A stretch of DNA of 64,000 nt from contig NZ_CP022685.1 of the NCBI RefSeq assembly GCF_002556545.1, forward strand, positions 1,488,001 to 1,552,000, read 5' to 3'. A program made the position numbers and the translations under genes. The first letter of the stretch is position 1, and each line of letters begins with the position of its first letter. Source of the stretch: Streptomyces formicae. GTDB lineage: Bacteria > Actinomycetota > Actinomycetes > Streptomycetales > Streptomycetaceae. The notes beneath the pieces were generated by a model that worked only from the letters and a program-made list of their open reading frames with translations, was not told where the DNA came from and ran no database searches. Shown here in pieces: positions 9,101 through 63,959 of the stretch.

Positions 9101-10221
9101 ACCGCGAGCGCCGCCTTGATGAGGGCGACGATGCCCGCGGCGCCCTCCAGGTGGCCGACGTTGGTCTTGGCGGAGCCGACGAGCAGCGGGTTGTCCGGCG
9201 TGCGCGTGGGGGCGAAGACGGCGCCGAGCGCGGCCGCCTCGACGGGGTCGCCCGCCTTGGTGCCGGTGCCGTGCAGCTCCACGTAGCCGACCTCGGCCGG
9301 GGTCACGCCCGCGTGTTCGTGGGCGAGCCGGATGACGGCTTCCTGTGCGCCCCGGTCGGGGACGGTGAGGCCGCGGCCACCGCCGTCGTTGTTGACGGCG
9401 CCGCCGAGGATGACGGAGAGGATGTCGTCGCCGTCGGCCTCGGCGTCCGCGAGCCGCTTGAGGACGACGATCCCGCCGCCCTCGCCGCGTACGTAGCCGT
9501 TGGCGCGCGCGTCGAAGGTGTAGCAGCGGCTGTCGGGCGAGAGTCCGCCGAACTTGGTGACGGAGACGCTGCTCTCCGGCGCCAGGATGAGGTTGACGCC
9601 GCCCGCGACGGCGAGCGCGGACTCGCCCTTGCGCAGGCTCTCGCACGCCTGGTGGACGGCGACGAGCGCCGAGGACTGGCCGGTGTCGACGACCAGGCTC
9701 GGGCCGCGCAGGCCCAGCTGGTAGGAGACGCGGTTGGCGATGATGCCGCGGTGCAGGCCCGTCGAGGTGAACGGGCCGATGGCGGCGGCACCCGCCCGGT
9801 GCAGCAGCGTCGCGTAGTCGTCGAGCATCGCCCCCGCGAAGACGCCGGTGCGGGTGCCGCGCAGGTCACCGGGGACGATGCCCGCGTTCTCCAGGGCCTC
9901 CCAGGCGAGTTCGAGCACGAGGCGCTGCTGCGGGTCCATGGCGGCGGCCTCGCGCGGCGCGATGCCGAAGAAGCGGGCGTCGAAGCCGTCGACCCGGTCG
10001 AGGAATCCGGCCTGGTGGGCATGCGTGGTGCCGGGGGCCGTGGGGTCGGCGTCGTAGAAATCGGCGGCGTTCCAGCGGTCGGCGGGCACGTCGCGCAGGG
10101 CGTGCTCGCCGTCGCGCAGGAGCTGCCAGAAGGCGTCGGGGTCGGGTGAGCCGGGCAGACGGCACGCCACGCCGACGATCGCGATGGCGTGGGCGTCCTG
10201 CGACTTCTTGCTGGTGGTCAT
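1..10221 (-). CDS. Type I modular PKS with KSQ loading module (PKS A), 3' end outside window
   Basis: A multimodular polyketide synthase running off the left edge; 3,407 residues are visible. The ATG at 10221 sits 6 nt after a GAGAGG ribosome site and 14 nt after the PKS B stop, so the two are probably translationally coupled. Domains on the minus strand (approximate): KSQ 10190-8910, AT 8590-7560, ACP 7400-7200; KS 7120-5830, AT 5540-4530, DH 4480-3600, KR 3560-2290, ACP 2090-1850; KS 1765-485; AT from 165 outward. The first KS reads [11 protein letters not shown], with Gln for the active Cys, so it should decarboxylate malonyl-ACP to an acetyl starter. The loading AT has GHSVGE and HAFH (malonyl). 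The module 1 AT has GHSQGE and YASH (methylmalonyl), its DH keeps [11 protein letters not shown] and its KR has LDD plus the catalytic Tyr (B-type). There is no N-terminal docking helix, as expected for a first subunit. No ER fits in module 1. Confidence 0.96.
4285..5810. repeat. Near-identical AT/DH cassette, copy 1 (PKS A module 1)
   Basis: Near-identical at nucleotide level to 12890-14416 (offset about 8,606 bp). It spans the KS-AT linker ([11 protein letters not shown]), the whole methylmalonyl AT and the start of the DH up to [11 protein letters not shown]. Outside these borders the modules diverge. It uses TTG, GAT, GTT and GGT codons far more than its surroundings. Confidence 0.85.
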
Positions 10222-43342: not shown

Positions 43343-55330
<11,988 letters not shown>

Positions 55331-55387
55331 TCGACGCGTACTCCCTTGGGGCAAGTCCGGGGTGGTCGGTGGAGGGCCAGCCTCGCC

Positions 55388-55424
55388 AAGGGGTCTTACG
55401 AACCCCTTTGCACGCCCTAAAGCG
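55388..55424 (-). promoter_or_regulatory. PKS C upstream element: inverted repeat and CGCTTTAG block
   Basis: The 102 bp between lanC and PKS C contain AAGGGGT (55388-55394) and ACCCCTT (55402-55408) around a 7-nt loop, and CTAAAGCG (55417-55424). On the coding strand the order is CGCTTTAG, AAAG, TAAG, CCCC, with the same spacing as upstream of PKS B. The distance from CTAAAGCG to the start codon is 86 nt here and 87 nt at PKS B. Confidence 0.55.
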
Positions 55425-55432
55425 CGGCCGCC

Positions 55433-56848
55433 TCAGCTCATCAGGAGCGCCGCGTCCCAGGCTCCGGCGTCCGGGCCGAGCGTCCTGCCGCGGCGGACGT
55501 CGGCGTAGGAGGCGAGCGCGAGCGCGGCGCCCGCGGCGCCGTCGAGCAGGGCGGGGCTGTCGAGCAGGTGGGCGGCGCCGGGTCCGCCGTCGTTCCCCGG
55601 GGCCCCCGCGCCCGGGACGTGCTCGACGTACTGGCGGAAGCCGAAAGCCGCGCTCTCGTCGAAGCAGTCGACGAGCCCCCGCACGGCACGGTCCACGCCG
55701 TCCCACAGCTCCGGGTCGCCCGTCTCCGCCACCATCCGGAGCCCGGCCTGCACCAGGCCCGCCCTGCCGTGGCAGAGGCCGGGGTCGTGCTCCATGGAGG
55801 CGGGCACCGGGCGCCGCAGCGCGGCCCTTACCGCGTCGGCAGCGCGGGCCCGCACCTTGATGTCGCCGAGCGCCCGGCCCGCCAGGTGCAGGGAGCCCGC
55901 GATGCCGGACGCGCCGTAGCACCAGCCCGCCCTGGCGGTCCGTGCCGCTTCGACGGGGGCCTGCCCCGTCTCCTCCTCGTAGGAGAGGCGCCCGGGCCAG
56001 TACGCGCCCCACTGGTCGGTGTGTTCCTTGCCGAGCACCCAGTCGGTGATGGTCCTGATGGCCTCGGGGCCGCCCGGCACCCGGTGGCCCGCGAGGTCGG
56101 CGAGCGAGAGGAGGGCGAGCGGGCCCGAAATGCCGTGTGCCACACCGACGTTGAGGTCTCCGCGCGGGAAGGCGTCCCGGTCGCGGGGCACGACGTACCG
56201 GCCGGGGTCGCACCACCAGCCGGGCACCTCCCTGCCGCCGACCCGGACCGGTCGGGCGAGACCCGCGAACAGGGCGAGCACCTCCGCGAGGACGTGCGCG
56301 GCGCGCTCGTCGCCGCCGTCCGCGGCGAGCAGCAGGAGGCGGCCCTGCCGGGCGAGTCCGGCCACCGCGTCGTACTCCAGGTAGGAGAGCCCTGGACCGC
56401 TGTGCGCAAGGCGCGCGGCCAGGCGCCGGACGCCCGCTTCGGTGAAGGAGGCGTGCGCCGCCGTACTGCGCGCGAGCAGCTTCGCGTACCCTCCGGAGAC
56501 TCTGGCGTGCAGCCGCGCGGGCAGGATCAGGTCGCCCGCGGCGGCCGGACCGTGCCGGGCGACTCCCGCGGCCGCGGCGGCCAGATGGGCATGGGCCGCC
56601 CGCGCCCACACCGCGTCGCCCCGGGCCGCCCTGTGGGTGTGCAGCAGGGCGACCCCGGCATGACCGAGCAGGACCGACGCGGGCTGCCAGCCGGGCAGCA
56701 TCAGACCGGGCGGCGCGGCCGCGAAAGCCTCCCTCGCGATGTCCGCGACAGCCTCCGGCTCACGCAGCCGGTCGCCGACCGCATGCGCGATCTCCAGCGC
56801 CCGATCGGGAAGACGCGCCTCGTCGGGGAGTTCCGCCAAGGTCCTCAT
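55433..56848 (-). CDS. Lanthionine cyclase, LanC family
   Basis: A 471-residue LanC-like cyclase that adds Cys thiols to dehydroamino acids to form (methyl)lanthionine rings. Zinc ligands are present: Cys in GWCYGASGIAG and Cys-His in DPGLCHGRAG. The upstream HGISGPLALLSLA repeat motif and the alpha-toroid spacing also fit LanC. ATG 56848 is in a 4-bp ATGA overlap with the LanB stop, so the pair is translationally coupled. The extra N-terminal 100 or so residues are alpha-helical and Ala-rich. Its stop is 102 bp from the PKS C start on the same strand. Confidence 0.93.
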   Translation of the reverse strand: MRTLAELPDEARLPDRALEIAHAVGDRLREPEAVADIAREAFAAAPPGLMLPGWQPASVLLGHAGVALLHTHRAARGDAVWARAAHAHLAAAAAGVARHGPAAAGDLILPARLHARVSGGYAKLLARSTAAHASFTEAGVRRLAARLAHSGPGLSYLEYDAVAGLARQGRLLLLAADGGDERAAHVLAEVLALFAGLARPVRVGGREVPGWWCDPGRYVVPRDRDAFPRGDLNVGVAHGISGPLALLSLADLAGHRVPGGPEAIRTITDWVLGKEHTDQWGAYWPGRLSYEEETGQAPVEAARTARAGWCYGASGIAGSLHLAGRALGDIKVRARAADAVRAALRRPVPASMEHDPGLCHGRAGLVQAGLRMVAETGDPELWDGVDRAVRGLVDCFDESAAFGFRQYVEHVPGAGAPGNDGGPGAAHLLDSPALLDGAAGAALALASYADVRRGRTLGPDAGAWDAALLMS

Positions 56849-59800
56849 CTGCCGTGCCGCTTCCTGTCGAGACGCAGCGCGAGCGCCTCGCGCGCGACGG
56901 TGTGGGCGAGCACTTCCGCTTCCTGCCGGGTCCCGAGGAGCCGGTTGCAGTGCATGTGCGCGAGGCTCATGGCGACGGAGGCCCTGCGGTGCGGGGGCAC
57001 TCCTTCGGCGGCGAGCGCGGCACGCAGCTCGGCGAGCGCCCGTGCGCGGTCCGCCCAGCGGGCGGGGAGCGGGCCGGGGTCCTCGCCGGGCGGCACGTCC
57101 GGTCCCGGCGGCCGTACCCGGCCCTCGCCGTCGAGCCGGTCGGCGGCCGCGTTCTTCCACTGGCGCGACACGTCACCGCGCCGGGCCAGGATCCGTTCGC
57201 CGCCGAGCCAGCCCAGGACCTCGTCCGGGGTGCCGAGCCCGGTGAGGACGTCGAGGATGCCGAGGGCGGCGAGCACTTCCTCCGGCAGGTCTCCCGTCTC
57301 CTTGACGGGCAGGGCGAGTTGGGCCACCACCGCCGCGCTGTCGGCGCGGAAGACCCGCTCCGCGTGCCCGTGCGCGGCGGCGCCCCCGTAGCGTTCGGTC
57401 TCGGGGTCGTAGGTGTCGAGGACGAGACGCTGGACTAGCCCGGCGCCGCGCAGCCGCTCCGTCCAGCGGTTGAGTACGGGGAGCAGCGCCGACCAGAGCC
57501 GTGCGGGGTCGCCGTGGAAGCGGAGCCGCAGATGCGGGTCGGGGTCGGCGTAGCGGAGGAAGAACCAGCTGTCGACACCGGCGGAGGCGAGCGCCTGCGG
57601 GTCGATGATCTCGGGCAAGTGCCGTGTCATTACGGTGACTTGATGGGCGTCGGGCAGGTAGAGCTTGGCGTAGAGCCACTCGCCGCCGGGGAGGTGCGCG
57701 GCGCGGGCGCGGGACTCGGCCGAGGGCTCGACGAAGGGCTCGCGGAGGACCGCGCCGGCACTCCCCTGATCGGCGCTCATCCGCTCCCCCGCCACGAGCG
57801 GGAAGACGAACTCCGCCGCGTGCGCCCCCTCGGGCCCCCTCAGCCAGGACGTCCCCCACTCGGCCCCGTACCGCTCCACGACCGACAGGCCGCGTGAGCG
57901 CCTCAACTCCTCGCGCAGGACGTGCAGATGGAGCGGCTCTTCGAGGTCGAGGGCGATGCGGTGGTCGGCGCGGGTCAGCAGGACGTGCCGTGGCACGTCC
58001 CAGCGGCGCCGCCACCGCCCGGCACCGAGGGCGAAGCCCCGGTCCCCCGCCGCTCCCTCGGCGGCGTCGAGGAGTTCGCGGTCGGGCAGCCAACGGGCCG
58101 GGGCGAGCACGGTCCTGCCGCGCGTGACGCGGGGCTGGGCGGGCGCCGACGACCAGGCGCCCCAGTTCCAGGGGATGCACCAGTCGTGCCCCTCCTGCCC
58201 GAGTTCGAGCAGGAAGCGGGCGACGTGCGGCACGTGCCCGGTGGCGGGGTTGAGCATGGAGTACGACACCGGGCGCACCCGCCGTCCGCTCACGGTGTCG
58301 TACAAACGCAGCCCTTCGAGGTCGGCGTGGACGGCGAGGCGCGCCACGTCCAGGTCCGTCGTGCCGGGTTCCGCCGCGGGTCCGACCCCGAGCGGAATGC
58401 GGTGCGCGAGCCACTGGGGAACGGCGGCCACGTTGGCGGAGCGGATGACGCGGGGCCGGTAGGCGACGGTGGCCAGGAGCTCGTCGGTGGCCCCTGCGGC
58501 CGCGCCGCGCCGCACCAGCTCCCCCACCCGCGCGGTGTCCGCGCCCCACACGGAGGCGAACCTGCTGAAGGTGGCACCGCCCAGGGGCGAGCCCGGGTTG
58601 GCGCCGAGCAGCAGCCGAAAGTCCCCTTCGCACAGGTCCTGCCAGCTGCGCGCGACGAGTTCGGCGCCGATCTCCAGGGAGGCGGGTACGCGGCGGCCCT
58701 CGGGCGGCGCGAGGGCGTCGAGCGCGGCGTCGTCGAGCTCCACCTCGGCGGGCCGCCCGCTGTCGCCCCGGGAAGCGCCGCGGAAGGCGCCGAGGAAGAG
58801 TTCGGCGAGGGCGCGATCACGCCGGTCCGCCTCGGGGTGCGGCTCCGGCCGTGCGCCCGGTCCCTTGCGATAGGAGTCGGGCAGGCCCAACCCGCGTCCC
58901 TCGTCGAGGAGTTCGAGGACGGGCACGAGGCGGTCGGTGCCGTACCGCTCCAGGAAGGCGAGGTGGTAGTCGCGCAGGTGCGGGCTCCCTGACCGGATCA
59001 GCGAGGTGCGCCACAGCGTGCTCGCCGCCCGCTCGGCCTCGCGCTCCACCGCGTGCGGCAGCACGAGTTCGGCGGCCAGGCGCAGATCGGACTGGACGAC
59101 GTCGTCGGCCGTGTGCAGCGCGCGCATCCGCCCGGTGACCTCGGCGAGCCCCCGGCCGCGCGCGGCCGGGGGCGCGGCGTCCAGCGCGGCGAGCTCCGCG
59201 GCGATCTCGCGCAGGGCGTCGGCGAAGGGGTGGTCCCAGCCGTCGACGCGCTCCAGGACGTGCGTCAGCGGTGCGGTGCAGTCGGGCGGCGGCGTGAGGT
59301 CGCTGAGCAGGAAGTGGCCCTGTGTGAGCTGGGTGATGCAGCGGTCCACCGCTTCGGCGGAGGCGTCGGGGAAACGCGCGGCGATCCGGGCGGCGAGGTC
59401 CGCCCAGGCGATCGGTTCGGCCGCGCACTCCAGGGCGTGGCGCACGACGGGCGCGAGCCGCACCGAGTGGGCCAGGCGCTGGGCCCCCGCGCCGTCGTGG
59501 AAGTCGACGAGCACGAGCCTGCCGTCCCGCTCGGCGCGCAGCCCGTTGGCGACCAGGCGGGTGCGCCGCAGCACCTCCGGCGTCGCCCGCAGGGTGGCGA
59601 GCACGGCGTCGAGCCAGGCGGCGTCCGGGCGGCTCGCGGCGTGGTGCCCGGTGCCGACGCGCTGCCGCGGCGCCGGGCCGAACCCGGCGAGCTCGACGCC
59701 CGCGAAGAGTCCGAAGGGCGTGGCGCGATAGGTCATCCGCAGGTGGTACTTGACCAGGGAGATCACCAGTCGCCGCAGCCGCCGCTCCTTGAGCGGTTCG

Positions 59801-60075
59801 CCCGCCGCCGCCCTGCGGGCCTCGCCCGCGAGGCTGGGGCTCGCCAGCTCGACCGCCGCCATGAAGTCCGACTGCCCGGTGAGCCTGGCGAGTTCGGCAC
59901 GGAGCGGGTCGGCCCCGGTCGTCTCCGCCACCGGCCCATCGGCCTGGGCCGTCTCCGCCACCACCACGTCGGGACCGGAGCGGCCGCCGCCCCGGTCCGG
60001 GGGAAGAGCGAGCACCGCCGCGCGCAGCAGCGCCACTCCCGCTGATCCGAATTCGACCTTGCCCTTCACGCGCAC
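56845..60075 (-). CDS. Class I lanthipeptide dehydratase, full-length LanB
   Basis: A 1,076-residue dehydratase carrying both halves of class I LanB. The N-terminal glutamylation region includes TGQSDFMAAVELASPSL and YHLRMTYRATPFGLFAGVEL. The C-terminal elimination domain (SpaB_C / thiopeptide-type) starts near WLYAKLYLPDAHQVTVMTRHL and includes SWFFLRYADPDPHLRLRFHG. It should convert Ser/Thr of the precursor at 60167-60313 to Dha/Dhb using glutamyl-tRNA. The start is uncertain: GTG 60075 gives MRVKGK, GTG 60069 is two codons later, and neither has a strong ribosome site. It lies 91 bp downstream of the precursor. Confidence 0.93.
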   Translation of the reverse strand: MRVKGKVEFGSAGVALLRAAVLALPPDRGGGRSGPDVVVAETAQADGPVAETTGADPLRAELARLTGQSDFMAAVELASPSLAGEARRAAAGEPLKERRLRRLVISLVKYHLRMTYRATPFGLFAGVELAGFGPAPRQRVGTGHHAASRPDAAWLDAVLATLRATPEVLRRTRLVANGLRAERDGRLVLVDFHDGAGAQRLAHSVRLAPVVRHALECAAEPIAWADLAARIAARFPDASAEAVDRCITQLTQGHFLLSDLTPPPDCTAPLTHVLERVDGWDHPFADALREIAAELAALDAAPPAARGRGLAEVTGRMRALHTADDVVQSDLRLAAELVLPHAVEREAERAASTLWRTSLIRSGSPHLRDYHLAFLERYGTDRLVPVLELLDEGRGLGLPDSYRKGPGARPEPHPEADRRDRALAELFLGAFRGASRGDSGRPAEVELDDAALDALAPPEGRRVPASLEIGAELVARSWQDLCEGDFRLLLGANPGSPLGGATFSRFASVWGADTARVGELVRRGAAAGATDELLATVAYRPRVIRSANVAAVPQWLAHRIPLGVGPAAEPGTTDLDVARLAVHADLEGLRLYDTVSGRRVRPVSYSMLNPATGHVPHVARFLLELGQEGHDWCIPWNWGAWSSAPAQPRVTRGRTVLAPARWLPDRELLDAAEGAAGDRGFALGAGRWRRRWDVPRHVLLTRADHRIALDLEEPLHLHVLREELRRSRGLSVVERYGAEWGTSWLRGPEGAHAAEFVFPLVAGERMSADQGSAGAVLREPFVEPSAESRARAAHLPGGEWLYAKLYLPDAHQVTVMTRHLPEIIDPQALASAGVDSWFFLRYADPDPHLRLRFHGDPARLWSALLPVLNRWTERLRGAGLVQRLVLDTYDPETERYGGAAAHGHAERVFRADSAAVVAQLALPVKETGDLPEEVLAALGILDVLTGLGTPDEVLGWLGGERILARRGDVSRQWKNAAADRLDGEGRVRPPGPDVPPGEDPGPLPARWADRARALAELRAALAAEGVPPHRRASVAMSLAHMHCNRLLGTRQEAEVLAHTVAREALALRLDRKRHGR

Positions 60076-60166: not shown

Positions 60167-60313
60167 TCAGCAGTGCCAGGAGGTCACCGGGCAGGAGAGA
60201 CACGTGCCGGTGCCCGTGAAGGACTTGGCCTCCATGGCCGGGGCGTCCTCGAAGGCGGTGTCGAGGTCGAGGTCGAGGTCGAACTCGGTCTCCGCGGCGC
60301 TGATGTTGTTCAT
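60167..60313 (-). CDS. Class I lanthipeptide precursor peptide, 48 residues
   Basis: A small gene starting MNNISAAETEFDLD and ending TGTCLSCPVTSWHC. ATG 60313 has AAAGGGA about 6 nt upstream. The leader has an FDLDLDLD run matching the F-x-L-D box that class I LanB enzymes recognise, and it is strongly acidic. A leader/core junction after AMEAK or after EDAPA is possible; the latter resembles the Ala-Pro-Ala-type ends of actinobacterial class I leaders. The tail has three Cys (38, 41, 48) and seven Ser/Thr from residue 31, enough for up to three thioether rings, with Cys as the last residue. It is the first gene of the LanA-LanB-LanC operon. No LanD, protease or transporter was found next to it. 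Confidence 0.85.
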   Translation of the reverse strand: MNNISAAETEFDLDLDLDTAFEDAPAMEAKSFTGTGTCLSCPVTSWHC

Positions 60314-60473
60314 CTACGTCCCTTTCGTCAGGGGTCACGGCGGCTCCGGCGGCCCCGAACGGGCGGCCGCCGGGCACACCTTCAACACAACGCTCCGTTT
60401 GTAGTGAGGGGCTCTAATCGACGCCTTAAGGGGCCCTGAACAGGCGGCCGTCGAGCACACCGACCACTTCAAT
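60314..60473. other. Intergenic region upstream of the lanthipeptide operon
   Basis: The divergent region between the precursor and the chitinase gene. It holds CTCCGTTTGTAGTG (60394-60406), which shares CTCCGTTTG with the putative TetR operator but lacks the rest of it. It also holds GCCTTAAGGGGCC (60423-60435), similar to GCCTTTAGGGGCC at 29026. No further small open frame with a ribosome site was recognised. Confidence 0.35.
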
Positions 60474-60515
60474 TGGTCCATACCTATTGACGCTCTGGTC
60501 TAGTCCTCTTAACGT
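60474..60515 (+). promoter_or_regulatory. Chitinase promoter with tandem 12-bp repeats (DasR/chitin-type)
   Basis: TGGTCCATACCT (60474-60485) and TGGTCTAGTCCT (60496-60507) form the pair of imperfect direct repeats known from Streptomyces chitinase promoters. The second differs from the DasR core TGGTCTAGACCA at two of 12 positions. TTGACG (60487-60492), a 17-bp spacer and TAACGT (60510-60515) give the promoter. Chitin- or N-acetylglucosamine-responsive control follows from established work on such repeats. Confidence 0.75.
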
Positions 60516-60624
60516 CTGCGTCACTCCCAGGAGAGGCCCGCCCGGTGTGCGCACACCAGGGGCCGCCGCCCTTGTTCGCCCCGCCGCGCCCGCGCGGCAC
60601 CGAGCCTCCCCAGGAGGAACCGAC

Positions 60625-62946
60625 GTGCATCCCGTACGACCCCGGACCACGCTCCTCGCCACCGGCGCGGCCGTCGCCGGACTACTGCTCGGCGGCCTCA
60701 CCGCGAGTACGTCCCACGCCGCCGACAACGAGTCCTGCAGACCCGACGGCCTGTACAAGACACCGGGCGTGGACGTTCCCTACTGTTCCGTCTACGACAG
60801 CGCGGGCCGCGAGAAGATGGGCGCCGACCACCAGCGGCGCGTCATCGGCTACTTCACCGGCTGGCGCACCGGCAAGAACGGCGAGCCCGCCTATCTGGCC
60901 TCCGACATCCCGTGGGACAAGGTCACCCACCTCAACTACGCCTTCGCGCACGTCGACAAGGACAACAAGATCTCCGTCGGCTCCGACGGCGAGAAGAACG
61001 CCGCGACCGGCATGACGTGGCCGGGCGTCGCGGGCGCCGAGATGGACCCCGCGCTCCCCTACAAGGGGCACTTCAACCTCCTGAACAAGTTCAAGAAGCA
61101 GCACCCGAACGTCAAGACCCTGGTCTCGGTGGGCGGTTGGGCCGAGACCGGCGGCTACTTCGGCGACGACGGCAAGCGCGTGGACTCCGGCGGCTTCTAC
61201 TCGATGGCCACCAACGCGGACGGCTCCGTCAACCAGGCGGGCATCGACACGTTCGCCGACTCCACCGTCGCGTTCATCAAGAAGTACGGCTTCAACGGCG
61301 TCGACATCGACTACGAGTACCCGACGACGATGAAGGACTCGGGCAACCCGCTCGACTGGCAGCTCTCCAACGCCCGCCGCGCGGGCCTGGTCAAGGGCTA
61401 CGCCGCGCTGATGAAGTCCCTGCGCGAGAAGCTCGACAGGGCGGGCGCCGCCGACGGCAAGCACTACATGCTGACCGTCGCGGCCCCCTCGTCCGGCTAT
61501 CTGCTGCGCGGCATGGAGACCTTCCAAGTCCAGAAGTACCTGGACTACGTCAACATCATGTCGTACGACCTGCACGGCGCGTGGAACGAGTACGTGGGCC
61601 CGAACGCCTCGCTCTACGACGACGGCAAGGACGCCGAGCTCGCGGCGGCCGGTGTCTACGGCAGCCAGCAGTACGGCGGCATCGGCTACCTCAACACCGA
61701 CTGGGCGTACCACTACTTCCGCGGCTCGATGCCCGCGGGACGGATCAACATCGGACTGCCGTACTACACCCGCGGCTTCAAGAACGTGCAGGGCGGCACG
61801 GACGGCCTCTGGGGCAAGGCGGCCACCACGAACTGCCCGGCCGGGGCCGGACTCACCAAGTGCGGTGACGGCGCCGTCGGCATCGACAACCTGTGGCACG
61901 ACAAGGACGCCAACGGCAAGGAGTCTCCTGCCGGTTCGAACCCGATGTGGCACGCCAAGAACCTGGAGAAGGGCGTCGTCGGCGACTACGTGACCAAGTA
62001 CGGTTTCGCCGCCGACACCAAGCTGACCGGCACCTACGCCCGCAAGTACGACTCCACCCTGGTCGCGCCCTGGCTCTGGAACGCCGACAAGAAGGTCTTC
62101 CTGTCCACCGAGGACGAGCAGTCGGTGAAGGCCAAGGCCGACTACGTGGTCGACAAGGGCATCGGCGGCACGATGGTGTGGGAGCTCGCGGGCGACTACA
62201 AGTTCAACTCCGCCAAGGGCCAGTACGAGATCGGCGACACGCTCACGACCGCGATGTACGACAAGTTCAAGGCGGCCGCCCCGTACGGCGCGAAGGTCGC
62301 GGGCCAGGACCTGCCGGCCAAGGCCGTCGACATCGGCGTGCAGTTCGGCGACTTCAAGCTCGGCGACTCCAACTACCCGATCACGCCCAAGCTGAAGATC
62401 ACCAACAACACGAAGACGACGCTGCCCGGCGGCACGGAGTTCCAGTTCGACTACGCCACCTCCGCTCCCGGCAACGCGTCCGACCAGTCGGGCTTCGGCA
62501 CGAAGGTGATCAGCAGCGGCCACACCGGCAGCAACGTCGGCGGCCTCAAGGGCGACTTCCACCGCGTCTCGCTGAAGCTCCCCGCCTGGCAGACGCTGGC
62601 CCCCGGCGCATCCGTCGACCTGTCCTTCAACTACTACCTGCCGGTGTCGACCCCGTCGAACTGGACGGTGAACATCGGCGGCACGACGTACGCCCTCGCC
62701 GGTGACCTGGCCCGCGGCACCACCCTCGTCGAGCCCGGCACGGGCACGGGCCCCACGGACCCGCCCGGCCCCACCGACCCGCCCGGCAAGTGCGCCCCCG
62801 CCGCCTGGAGCGCGACGTCCGAGTACGGCAGCGGGAGCGTCGTGTCGCAGGACGGGCACACCTGGAAGGCCAAGTGGTGGACGAAGGGCGACAAGCCCGG
62901 CACCACCGGCGAGTGGGGGGTCTGGCAGGACCTGGGCGCCTGCTGA
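60625..62946 (+). CDS. Secreted GH18 chitinase with CBM5/12 chitin-binding domain
   Basis: A 773-residue exo-acting glycosidase. GTG 60625 lies 7 nt after AGGAGG; longer in-frame starts lack a ribosome site. The signal peptide runs to about residue 32 ([10 protein letters not shown]). The GH18 barrel follows, with the catalytic motif [10 protein letters not shown]; Glu231 is the proton donor and Asp227/Asp229 assist. The first motif Asp is Asn here. A beta-sandwich region ([27 protein letters not shown]) and a [12 protein letters not shown] linker come next. The C-terminal CBM5/12 reads [33 protein letters not shown]. It degrades chitin outside the cell and is probably not part of the biosynthetic cluster. 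Confidence 0.95.
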
Positions 62947-63012
62947 CGGCTCCCCCGTGAAACGCCCGGCGGCGGGTTGACGTGCCCTTGCCCCGCCCCC
63001 GGGACCCCGGGC

Positions 63013-63036
63013 GGCCCGGCCCCGACGGGCCGGGCC
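63013..63036 (+). terminator. Hairpin terminator after the chitinase gene
   Basis: A perfect 10-bp stem GGCCCGGCCC / GGGCCGGGCC with a CGAC tetraloop, 66 bp after the chitinase stop and before the sigma factor gene. Confidence 0.7.
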
Positions 63037-63062
63037 GTCCGCGGCTCTGGCACGCTTGCGCG

Positions 63063-63959
63063 GTGAGCACAGAGACGATCTCGGCGGAGGAGTTCGCCTC
63101 CCACCGCCCGCGCGTGTTCGGCCTCGCCTACCGGATGCTCGGCTCCGCGCAGGAGGCGGAGGACACCGTCCAGGACGCGTACCTGCGCTGGCGCGGCGCG
63201 CGCCGCGCGGACATCGAACGGCCCGCCGCCTGGCTGGCGAAGACCGTCACCCATCTCTGTCTGAACCGGCTCACCTCCGCCCGCGCCCGGCGCGAGGAGT
63301 ACGTGGGCACCTGGCTGCCCGAACCGGTGATCACCTCGGGCGGGGCGCTCGGCCCCCTGGAGTCGGCGGAGCAGCGCGACGCGGTGTCGATGGCGCTCCT
63401 GGTCGTCCTGGAGCGGCTCACGCCGACCGAACGCGCGGTGTACGTGCTGCGCGAGGCGTTCGCGTACGGCCACCGCGAGATCGCCGGTGTCCTCGACACG
63501 AGCGAGGCCAACTCCCGCCAGCTGTACCGCAGGGCGGCGCGCGCGGTCGCCGCAGGGCGGACCCGCTTCGAGCCGGAGCCCCGTCCGCACCGGGAACTCG
63601 TCGAGGCGTTCCTCGCGGCGGCCAGGGACGGCGACGTCGCGGGCCTGGAGAAGCTGCTCGCCGCCGACGTGACCTGGTGGGGCGACGGCGGCGGCAAGGT
63701 CACCGCGGCCCGCAGGCCGGTCCTGGGACGCGAGAAGGTCGTACGGTTCCTGGTGGGCGGCATGCGGACGTTCGGTGCCGCGATGGACTTCTCGTACGCC
63801 GAGGTCAACGGCGCGCCCGCGGTGCTCGCGCGGGTCGAGGGGACGCTGGTGGGCACCGCCTCCTTCGAACTGTCCGGCGACGGCGCGGTCATCGGGGTGC
63901 GGGCCGTGGTCAACCCGGACAAACTGGCGTACGCGGAGCGCCAGGTGGCCCCGGTCTAG
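63063..63959 (+). CDS. ECF41-family extracytoplasmic-function sigma factor (SigJ-like)
   Basis: A 298-residue sigma factor with sigma region 2 (RPRVFGLAYRMLGSAQEAEDTVQDAYLRW) and region 4 (LTPTERAVYVLREAFAYGHREIAGVLDTSEANSRQLYRRA). A C-terminal SnoaL-like extension follows that acts as a built-in regulator in this family. All three ECF41 signatures are present: WLPEP in the linker, DGGGK and NPDKL. GTG 63063 matches the family start. The usual carboxymuconolactone-decarboxylase-type partner is not in the window but could lie to the right. The last 41 bp of the window hold nothing recognisable. Confidence 0.93.
   Translation: MSTETISAEEFASHRPRVFGLAYRMLGSAQEAEDTVQDAYLRWRGARRADIERPAAWLAKTVTHLCLNRLTSARARREEYVGTWLPEPVITSGGALGPLESAEQRDAVSMALLVVLERLTPTERAVYVLREAFAYGHREIAGVLDTSEANSRQLYRRAARAVAAGRTRFEPEPRPHRELVEAFLAAARDGDVAGLEKLLAADVTWWGDGGGKVTAARRPVLGREKVVRFLVGGMRTFGAAMDFSYAEVNGAPAVLARVEGTLVGTASFELSGDGAVIGVRAVVNPDKLAYAERQVAPV

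Follow-up and report, generated by a model that had tools for sequence, protein, structure and literature searches.

The window, by which we mean the whole 64,000-nucleotide stretch of Streptomyces formicae DNA that was analysed, carries on its minus strand a short precursor gene (lanA) followed by lanB and lanC. The features of the locus, in window coordinates, are the following.

60398..60430, minus strand: putative promoter/operator, consisting of CTTAAG(G), 20 nt and then the -10-like hexamer TACAAA (by eye); CTTAAG, at 60425-60430, lies at -117 of lanA
60319..60326, minus strand: lanA ribosome-binding site GAAAGGGA, 5 nt upstream of the ATG start
60167..60313 (stop codon included), minus strand: lanA, 48-aa class I lanthipeptide precursor, identified by translation and by the identical C-terminal 24 residues in three other loci
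60167..60223, minus strand: predicted core SFTGTGTCLSCPVTSWHC and stop, assuming that the leader is cut after Lys30
56845..60075, minus strand: lanB, full-length class I dehydratase of 1076 aa with PF04738 and PF14028; GTG start, alternative start further in
55433..56848, minus strand: lanC, cyclase of 471 aa with PF05147; its ATG overlaps the lanB stop by 4 nt
55388..55408, minus strand: 8-bp hairpin between lanC and the PKS gene, a weak candidate terminator; the stretch folds no better than its shuffles (z -0.75)
43343-55354, minus strand, the same as lanC: modular type I PKS gene, starting about 110 nt after lanC

Translation of the minus-strand ORF from 60313 to 60167 gives MNNISAAETEFDLDLDLDTAFEDAPAMEAKSFTGTGTCLSCPVTSWHC, followed by a stop. 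The product has the leader FDLDLDLD and a tail with three Cys. The elements that the first-pass annotation had read from the letters, namely the 48-residue ORF, its ribosome site, the leader and the tail ending in Cys, were all confirmed at these coordinates, on the minus strand. The window has 739 stop-ended frames that are 30 codons or longer, and lanA is the only one of them in which two Cys close to the end follow an FxLD motif. The lan genes contain no TTA codon, and their third-position GC is 0.92-0.96. The last 24 residues, PAMEAKSFTGTGTCLSCPVTSWHC, are identical in four loci: the window, Streptomyces sp. CB02414, S. atroolivaceus NRRL ISP-5137 and a further Streptomyces genome, G285. 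In CB02414 and S. atroolivaceus the ORF ending in PAMEAKSFTGTGTCLSCPVTSWHC sits just before lanB. Judged from the sequence, lanA is a real gene, because three other Streptomyces loci keep these 24 residues while the leader diverges. The leader is perhaps removed after Lys30; many members of the family alignment have E-[AS]-K at this assumed cleavage site.

The Pfam domains bore out the earlier statement that lanB and lanC directly follow the precursor: 91 nt separate lanA from a full-length lanB, and lanC comes next. LanB contains both the glutamylation and the elimination domain, as the pair formed by PF04738 (558 bits, E 3e-167) and PF14028 (176.6 bits, E 1e-51). Its nearest relatives of solved structure are 5ehk (lantibiotic dehydratase; E 3e-118), which we take to be MibB of microbisporicin, followed by 9g04 and NisB (4wd9, E 5e-36). 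Among the 14 LanB rows of the family, RxTPFG and HxHCNR are present in every one, and E-x-ERYGG in 13 (it is missing from L018). The separate cyclase LanC (PF05147, 88.3 bits, E 5e-25) aligns with 8byk and NisC, with the AHG, WCYG and CHG motifs lined up. These motifs are presumably catalytic or Zn-binding, WCYG and CHG holding Zn ligands. Adjoining lanB and lanC, the precursor combines an FxLD leader with a core of Ser, Thr and Cys. The two-domain LanB, the LanC motifs aligned to NisC, the FDLD leader and the co-conservation of the genes support the earlier assignment of lanA as a class I precursor.

No Pfam or NCBIfam model matched the precursor at cut-off, hence the comparison with precursor models suggested in the first-pass annotation placed it in no characterised family. 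TIGR04363 (FxLD; cut-off 30 bits) did not match the window peptide at E 0.1 or E 1; its sole match in the genome lies elsewhere, at 8434006. The genome has two further full-size lanB genes, at C1:8431828-8434116 and 129452-131401, and the one at 8431828-8434116 adjoins a TIGR04363 (FxLD) precursor, forming a separate lanthipeptide system. NF038155 (FDLD family; cut-off 20 bits) did not match the window peptide at E 1, and gave no match in the genome at E 0.01. TIGR04451 (SCO0268) scored 16.8 bits over residues 7-40, below its cut-off of 40; the neighbours of lanA encode LanB and LanC, not LanM. With ten aligned members as queries, the best NCBIfam matches were to TIGR04451 (five members, best E 0.0039), NF038155 (four members, weak, best E 0.062) and NF033457 (one member, E 0.11), and Pfam returned only unrelated matches (E 0.058 or worse). 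Membership in the FxLD, FDLD and SCO0268 families was therefore rejected, the matches being absent or below cut-off. The acidic FxLD-like leader is shared with TIGR04363 and TIGR04451, but TIGR04451 is a class II family, unlike the class I cassette studied here. NF038155 likewise has an FDLD leader and occurs in Streptomyces class I systems, whereas the members that we read carry CTPGC or other, mostly longer Cys cores.

With nisin and microbisporicin the cassette shares the two-enzyme logic, the F-x-L-D leader and a LanB alignable over most of its length with 5ehk and NisB; LanC resembles NisC over the motif-bearing part. It differs from them in lacking CTPGC and in its predicted core of about 18 residues, and no LanP, LanT or immunity gene was found in the cassette. 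The SxxxCTP(G/S)C motif, given in a class I survey as the lipid II-binder core motif of nisin and gallidermin (PMC7268733), is absent from the precursor; the first-pass description of a short core without a CTPGC-type motif is thus true by sequence. According to the same survey, most class I families are without a characterised member (PMC7268733). Families I 1-4 of Walker et al. 2020, as described there, are similar to ours in being actinobacterial class I precursors without a characterised product, but they have an Asp conserved in the core and are accompanied by a gene for an O-methyltransferase (PMC7268733). Asp is absent from the lanA core, and methyltransferase genes do not recur with the cassette. 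The survey holds 2698 class I precursors, and the present family may be among its supplementary tables (PMC7268733). The core strings had no match in open-access papers, a search that covered article text and not the supplementary tables of surveys; TSWHC did not occur among the open-access matches listed, and no title among these concerned a lanABC family of this kind. The earlier suggestion of a new minimal lanthipeptide largely stands, given that no family model reaches its cut-off, that the core strings are absent from the open-access papers searched and that the recurring genes are lanA, lanB and lanC only.

A LanB scan of genome contigs identified CB02414 and S. atroolivaceus NRRL ISP-5137 as named relatives. 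In total the precursor was found beside lanB in 15 loci, every one from Streptomyces: the window, CB02414, S. atroolivaceus, G285, G219, G077, G494, G294, G048, G348, G390, G311, G463, G433 and G064. In this count L041, which is the same contig as L003 (S. atroolivaceus), was taken once, and the decayed G280 and G524 were set apart. LanC was matched in 14 of the 15 loci, the remaining one (G077, L017) being cut by the contig end; in G294 it aligns as two pieces of one frame. The earlier interpretation had to be amended in two respects: the window peptide falls outside TIGR04363 and NF038155 as modelled, and it belongs to at least 15 loci, eight of which have an even shorter, two-Cys core.

With a single precursor as query, 10 of 392 genomes of Streptomyces gave a match (E 0.01). 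The ten-member profile (E 0.001) matched at least 11 of 392 genomes in the genus, at least 11 of 391 in the order, all of them Streptomyces out of 10 genera, and at least 2 of 394 in the class, namely the own genome and G847; these are lower bounds, since the profile searches scored 17 candidates per genome of about 60-150. The tallies include the own genome, the decayed G280 (genus searches) and the decayed G524 (order search). The match in G847 (E 3e-4), which would extend the family beyond Streptomyces, was judged to be chance: one frame has an SFTG...SCPRT stretch but lacks both an FDLD leader and a terminal Cys, and the 3 kb examined contain no LanB or LanC match. None of 46 plasmid records reached 60% LanB identity (the best 12 of the 46 had 29-35%). 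The two decayed loci indicate that the cassette is dispensable. In G280 (L022:9880-10419) a divergent precursor with the core SIGSVPCPPTYWHCAAE is followed by a LanB match that breaks off at about residue 105, and LanC is missing. G524 (L046, around 9939-10074) retains precursor pieces in two frames, the end still reading GTGTCLSCPVTSWHC, with no LanB or LanC match in 19.9 kb.

Two types of core were distinguished. Seven loci have a three-Cys core: SFTGTGTCLSCPVTSWHC in four, TMTGTGTCISCPITSWHC in G494, TFTGTGTCLACPPTYYDC in G077 and SVTITGTCMSCPVTVMYCH in G219. The other eight have the shorter two-Cys core LMTQVCP[VAP]TSW[HRSN]C(G). M1, the DLDL of the leader and, in the tail, C41, P42, T44 and C48 are invariant over the ten aligned members. 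The last Cys is followed by His in G219 and by Gly in G311 and G463. In the four identical-core loci the 24 codons show, in each of the six pairs, no nonsynonymous and 4-6 synonymous differences, the latter being few. In all six pairs pN is 0 for the core, 0.17-0.32 for the leader and 0.19-0.27 for lanB, which makes the core the most constrained of the parts measured. The LanBs of these loci are 59.6-68.5% identical pairwise, and 60-66% identical to the window LanB. In a LanB tree the three-Cys G494 is sister to the two-Cys clade (82/100), a position that favours the three-Cys core as the ancestral form. The placement of the root is uncertain, as the outgroup branches are long and one outgroup, L024, breaks into the three-Cys group; the outgroups were two paralogous LanBs of the own genome, with end branches of 3 and, as listed, 8. 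L017 (G077) was left out of the tree, its LanB being cut by the contig end, and the L025 row is the longest open frame, maybe from the wrong strand.

CTTAAG occurs once in the 64-kb window, and is found at -109 to -117 in 4/4 identical-core loci, compared with 0/11 other loci examined. In each of the four a hexamer (TACAAA, CAGGAT, TAGATC, TAGACC; by eye) lies 20 nt after TTAAGG/A. In place of this element, TTGAC is present at -103 to -124 in the two-Cys loci and in G494 (9/9); the three-Cys loci of G219 and G077 have neither element. This conservation of promoter-like elements by locus group supports the view that lanA is transcribed as its own unit, and with it the cassette. Control of lanA by DasR was considered and rejected: the best upstream match to a dre site (12/16) overlaps a repeat more likely to belong to the divergent chitinase gene, and 15 other loci had at most 8-10 of 16. 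The repeats in question, TGGTCCATACCT and TGGTCTAGTCCT, surround TTGACG at 60474-60509, upstream of the divergent chitinase frame 60487-62946 (GH18, ChiC and CBM5/12), and presumably resemble the direct repeats of Streptomyces chitinase promoters. The frame at 62982-63959 looks, by eye, like an ECF sigma factor whose C-terminus is SnoaL-like.

Neighbouring genes were surveyed in the 15-20 kb stretches around the cassettes by clustering of called genes, and 19 proteins selected from them were scanned with Pfam. Precursor, lanB and lanC were the only genes that recurred in all loci; genes for a transporter, a LanP-like protease, a LanD or immunity were not found conserved with the cassette in these stretches. 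Single loci have candidates of their own: CB02414 has an upstream MFS gene, and in G285 a gene for a trypsin-family protease adjoins lanC. Another MFS gene, in a block common to G294, G433, G064 and G494, was absent from the gene calls for G348 and G390. In five two-Cys loci (G294, G348, G390, G433, G064) the cassette is located just downstream of a gene for a MurB-like FAD protein, on the same strand and within a common gene block. In G494 the strand opposite the precursor carries the MurB-like, regulator-like (by eye) and MFS genes, at distances of 1 to 4 kb. We take the adjacency to MurB-like genes to reflect a shared location; the MurB-like protein could also be a tailoring reductase. On the whole we consider it very likely that the cassette is functional and represents a class I lanthipeptide gene set pared down to the precursor and the two enzymes LanB and LanC, for which leader removal and export would be provided from elsewhere.

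A more conventional product has to be weighed against this reading, from which it differs in function only: the modified peptide may be a lantibiotic acting on the envelope, with immunity and export encoded by unlinked genes. Class I lanthipeptides are often antibacterial, and PKS or NRPS genes near five of the seven three-Cys loci place the cassette in secondary-metabolite company. We nevertheless regard a lantibiotic as possible rather than probable, given that the CTPGC lipid II motif is absent from the sequence, that no immunity or transport gene is conserved in the loci and that the core has not diversified among the four identical-core species. The lack of recurring transporter and protease genes beside lanABC, together with the two visibly decayed related loci, might also suggest a decaying, non-functional leftover. 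This seems to us most improbable, since all three reading frames are open in the window, the core has the fewest nonsynonymous changes measured, and the promoter-like elements are conserved.

The secondary-metabolite genes raise a further question, whether the adjacent modular type I PKS makes a product to which the lanthipeptide is attached, as in the class III lipolanthines. The PKS gene begins shortly after lanC on the same strand, its first ketosynthase is 70% identical to one near lanA in S. atroolivaceus (L003) and G285 (L015), and PKS/NRPS genes were seen near 5/7 three-Cys loci vs 0/8 two-Cys loci. Yet these neighbours differ in kind and orientation: L003 and L015 have an opposite-strand PKS locus, which includes an FkbH-like gene (by eye), L016 (G219) has an NRPS and L045 (G494) a ketosynthase of 29% identity. 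Ketosynthase matches were limited to these three of the 16 other loci (L003, L015, L045), with none in L002 or L017, and an adenylation domain was found in one (L016, matching only itself). No constant PKS and no acyltransferase recurs with the cassette, the weak hairpin separates lanC from the PKS gene, and most of the two-Cys loci have a single location in common. A hybrid product is thus improbable, and the adjacent PKS is probably only a neighbour, with a link of some kind between PKS/NRPS genes and three-Cys loci indicated. Three very large minus-strand frames of the window (about 3400, 3980 and 4000 aa; 1-22190 and 43343-55354) look by eye like modular type I PKS; between them is a plus-strand block including, by eye, transporter and oxidoreductase genes. 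Oxidative decarboxylation of the C-terminal Cys by a LanD, giving an aminovinyl-cysteine ring, is very improbable. The core ends in Cys in most members, as do aminovinyl-cysteine lanthipeptides, and the genome encodes three PF02441 flavoproteins. These are unlinked, however, the nearest match lying 41 kb away and probably being CoaBC, to judge from the length of its ORF; flavoprotein genes do not recur across the loci, no LanD gene was found with the cassette, and in G219, G311 and G463 a residue follows the last Cys.

For the reduced but working lanABC set, we infer the following scheme from the genes, their domains and their conservation. LanB would bind the FDLDLDLD leader, glutamylate Ser and Thr residues of the core from Glu-tRNA and eliminate glutamate, and LanC would then add the Cys thiols to form thioether rings. 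The C-terminal ring is most likely Thr44-Cys48, because T44 is present in all ten aligned members while S45 and S40 are missing from some. Cys38 and Cys41 would most likely form rings with two of the residues Thr33, Thr35 and Thr37; these rings would overlap in a T-x-T-C-x-x-C unit resembling rings D/E of nisin. As far as the residues themselves can tell, this is the most likely ring pattern of the product. The two-Cys relatives would have one four-residue ring (T-Q-V-C), Pro and then the C-terminal ring. Enzymes encoded elsewhere would remove the leader, perhaps after Lys30, and export the peptide.

The chemistry is thus ordinary class I, which places the cassette as a new and, as far as seen here, uncharacterised family within class I lanthipeptide biosynthesis. 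Its interest lies in the frozen core, the bare lanABC cassette and the shortened two-Cys relatives: a compact class I system with one short core, for which the two-Cys variant provides a natural comparison. As a bolder and, taken whole, rather unlikely proposal, the product would be a short, hormone-like lanthipeptide of invariant sequence, with two or three rings, that serves Streptomyces as a signal or in development and needs no export, protease or immunity genes of its own. Its two-Cys form, at about 13 residues, would rank with the smallest cores of class I and would have arisen from a three-Cys ancestor by loss of the nisin-D/E-like double ring. Function is the least certain step. Because the core is letter-perfect and conserved immunity and transport genes are absent, a molecule with a fixed partner, such as a signal or developmental peptide, fits at least as well as an antibiotic. 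A core that stays unchanged though the LanBs are only 60-69% identical is not what would be expected if the peptide were a fast-evolving antibiotic, and suggests a partner molecule that is itself fixed.
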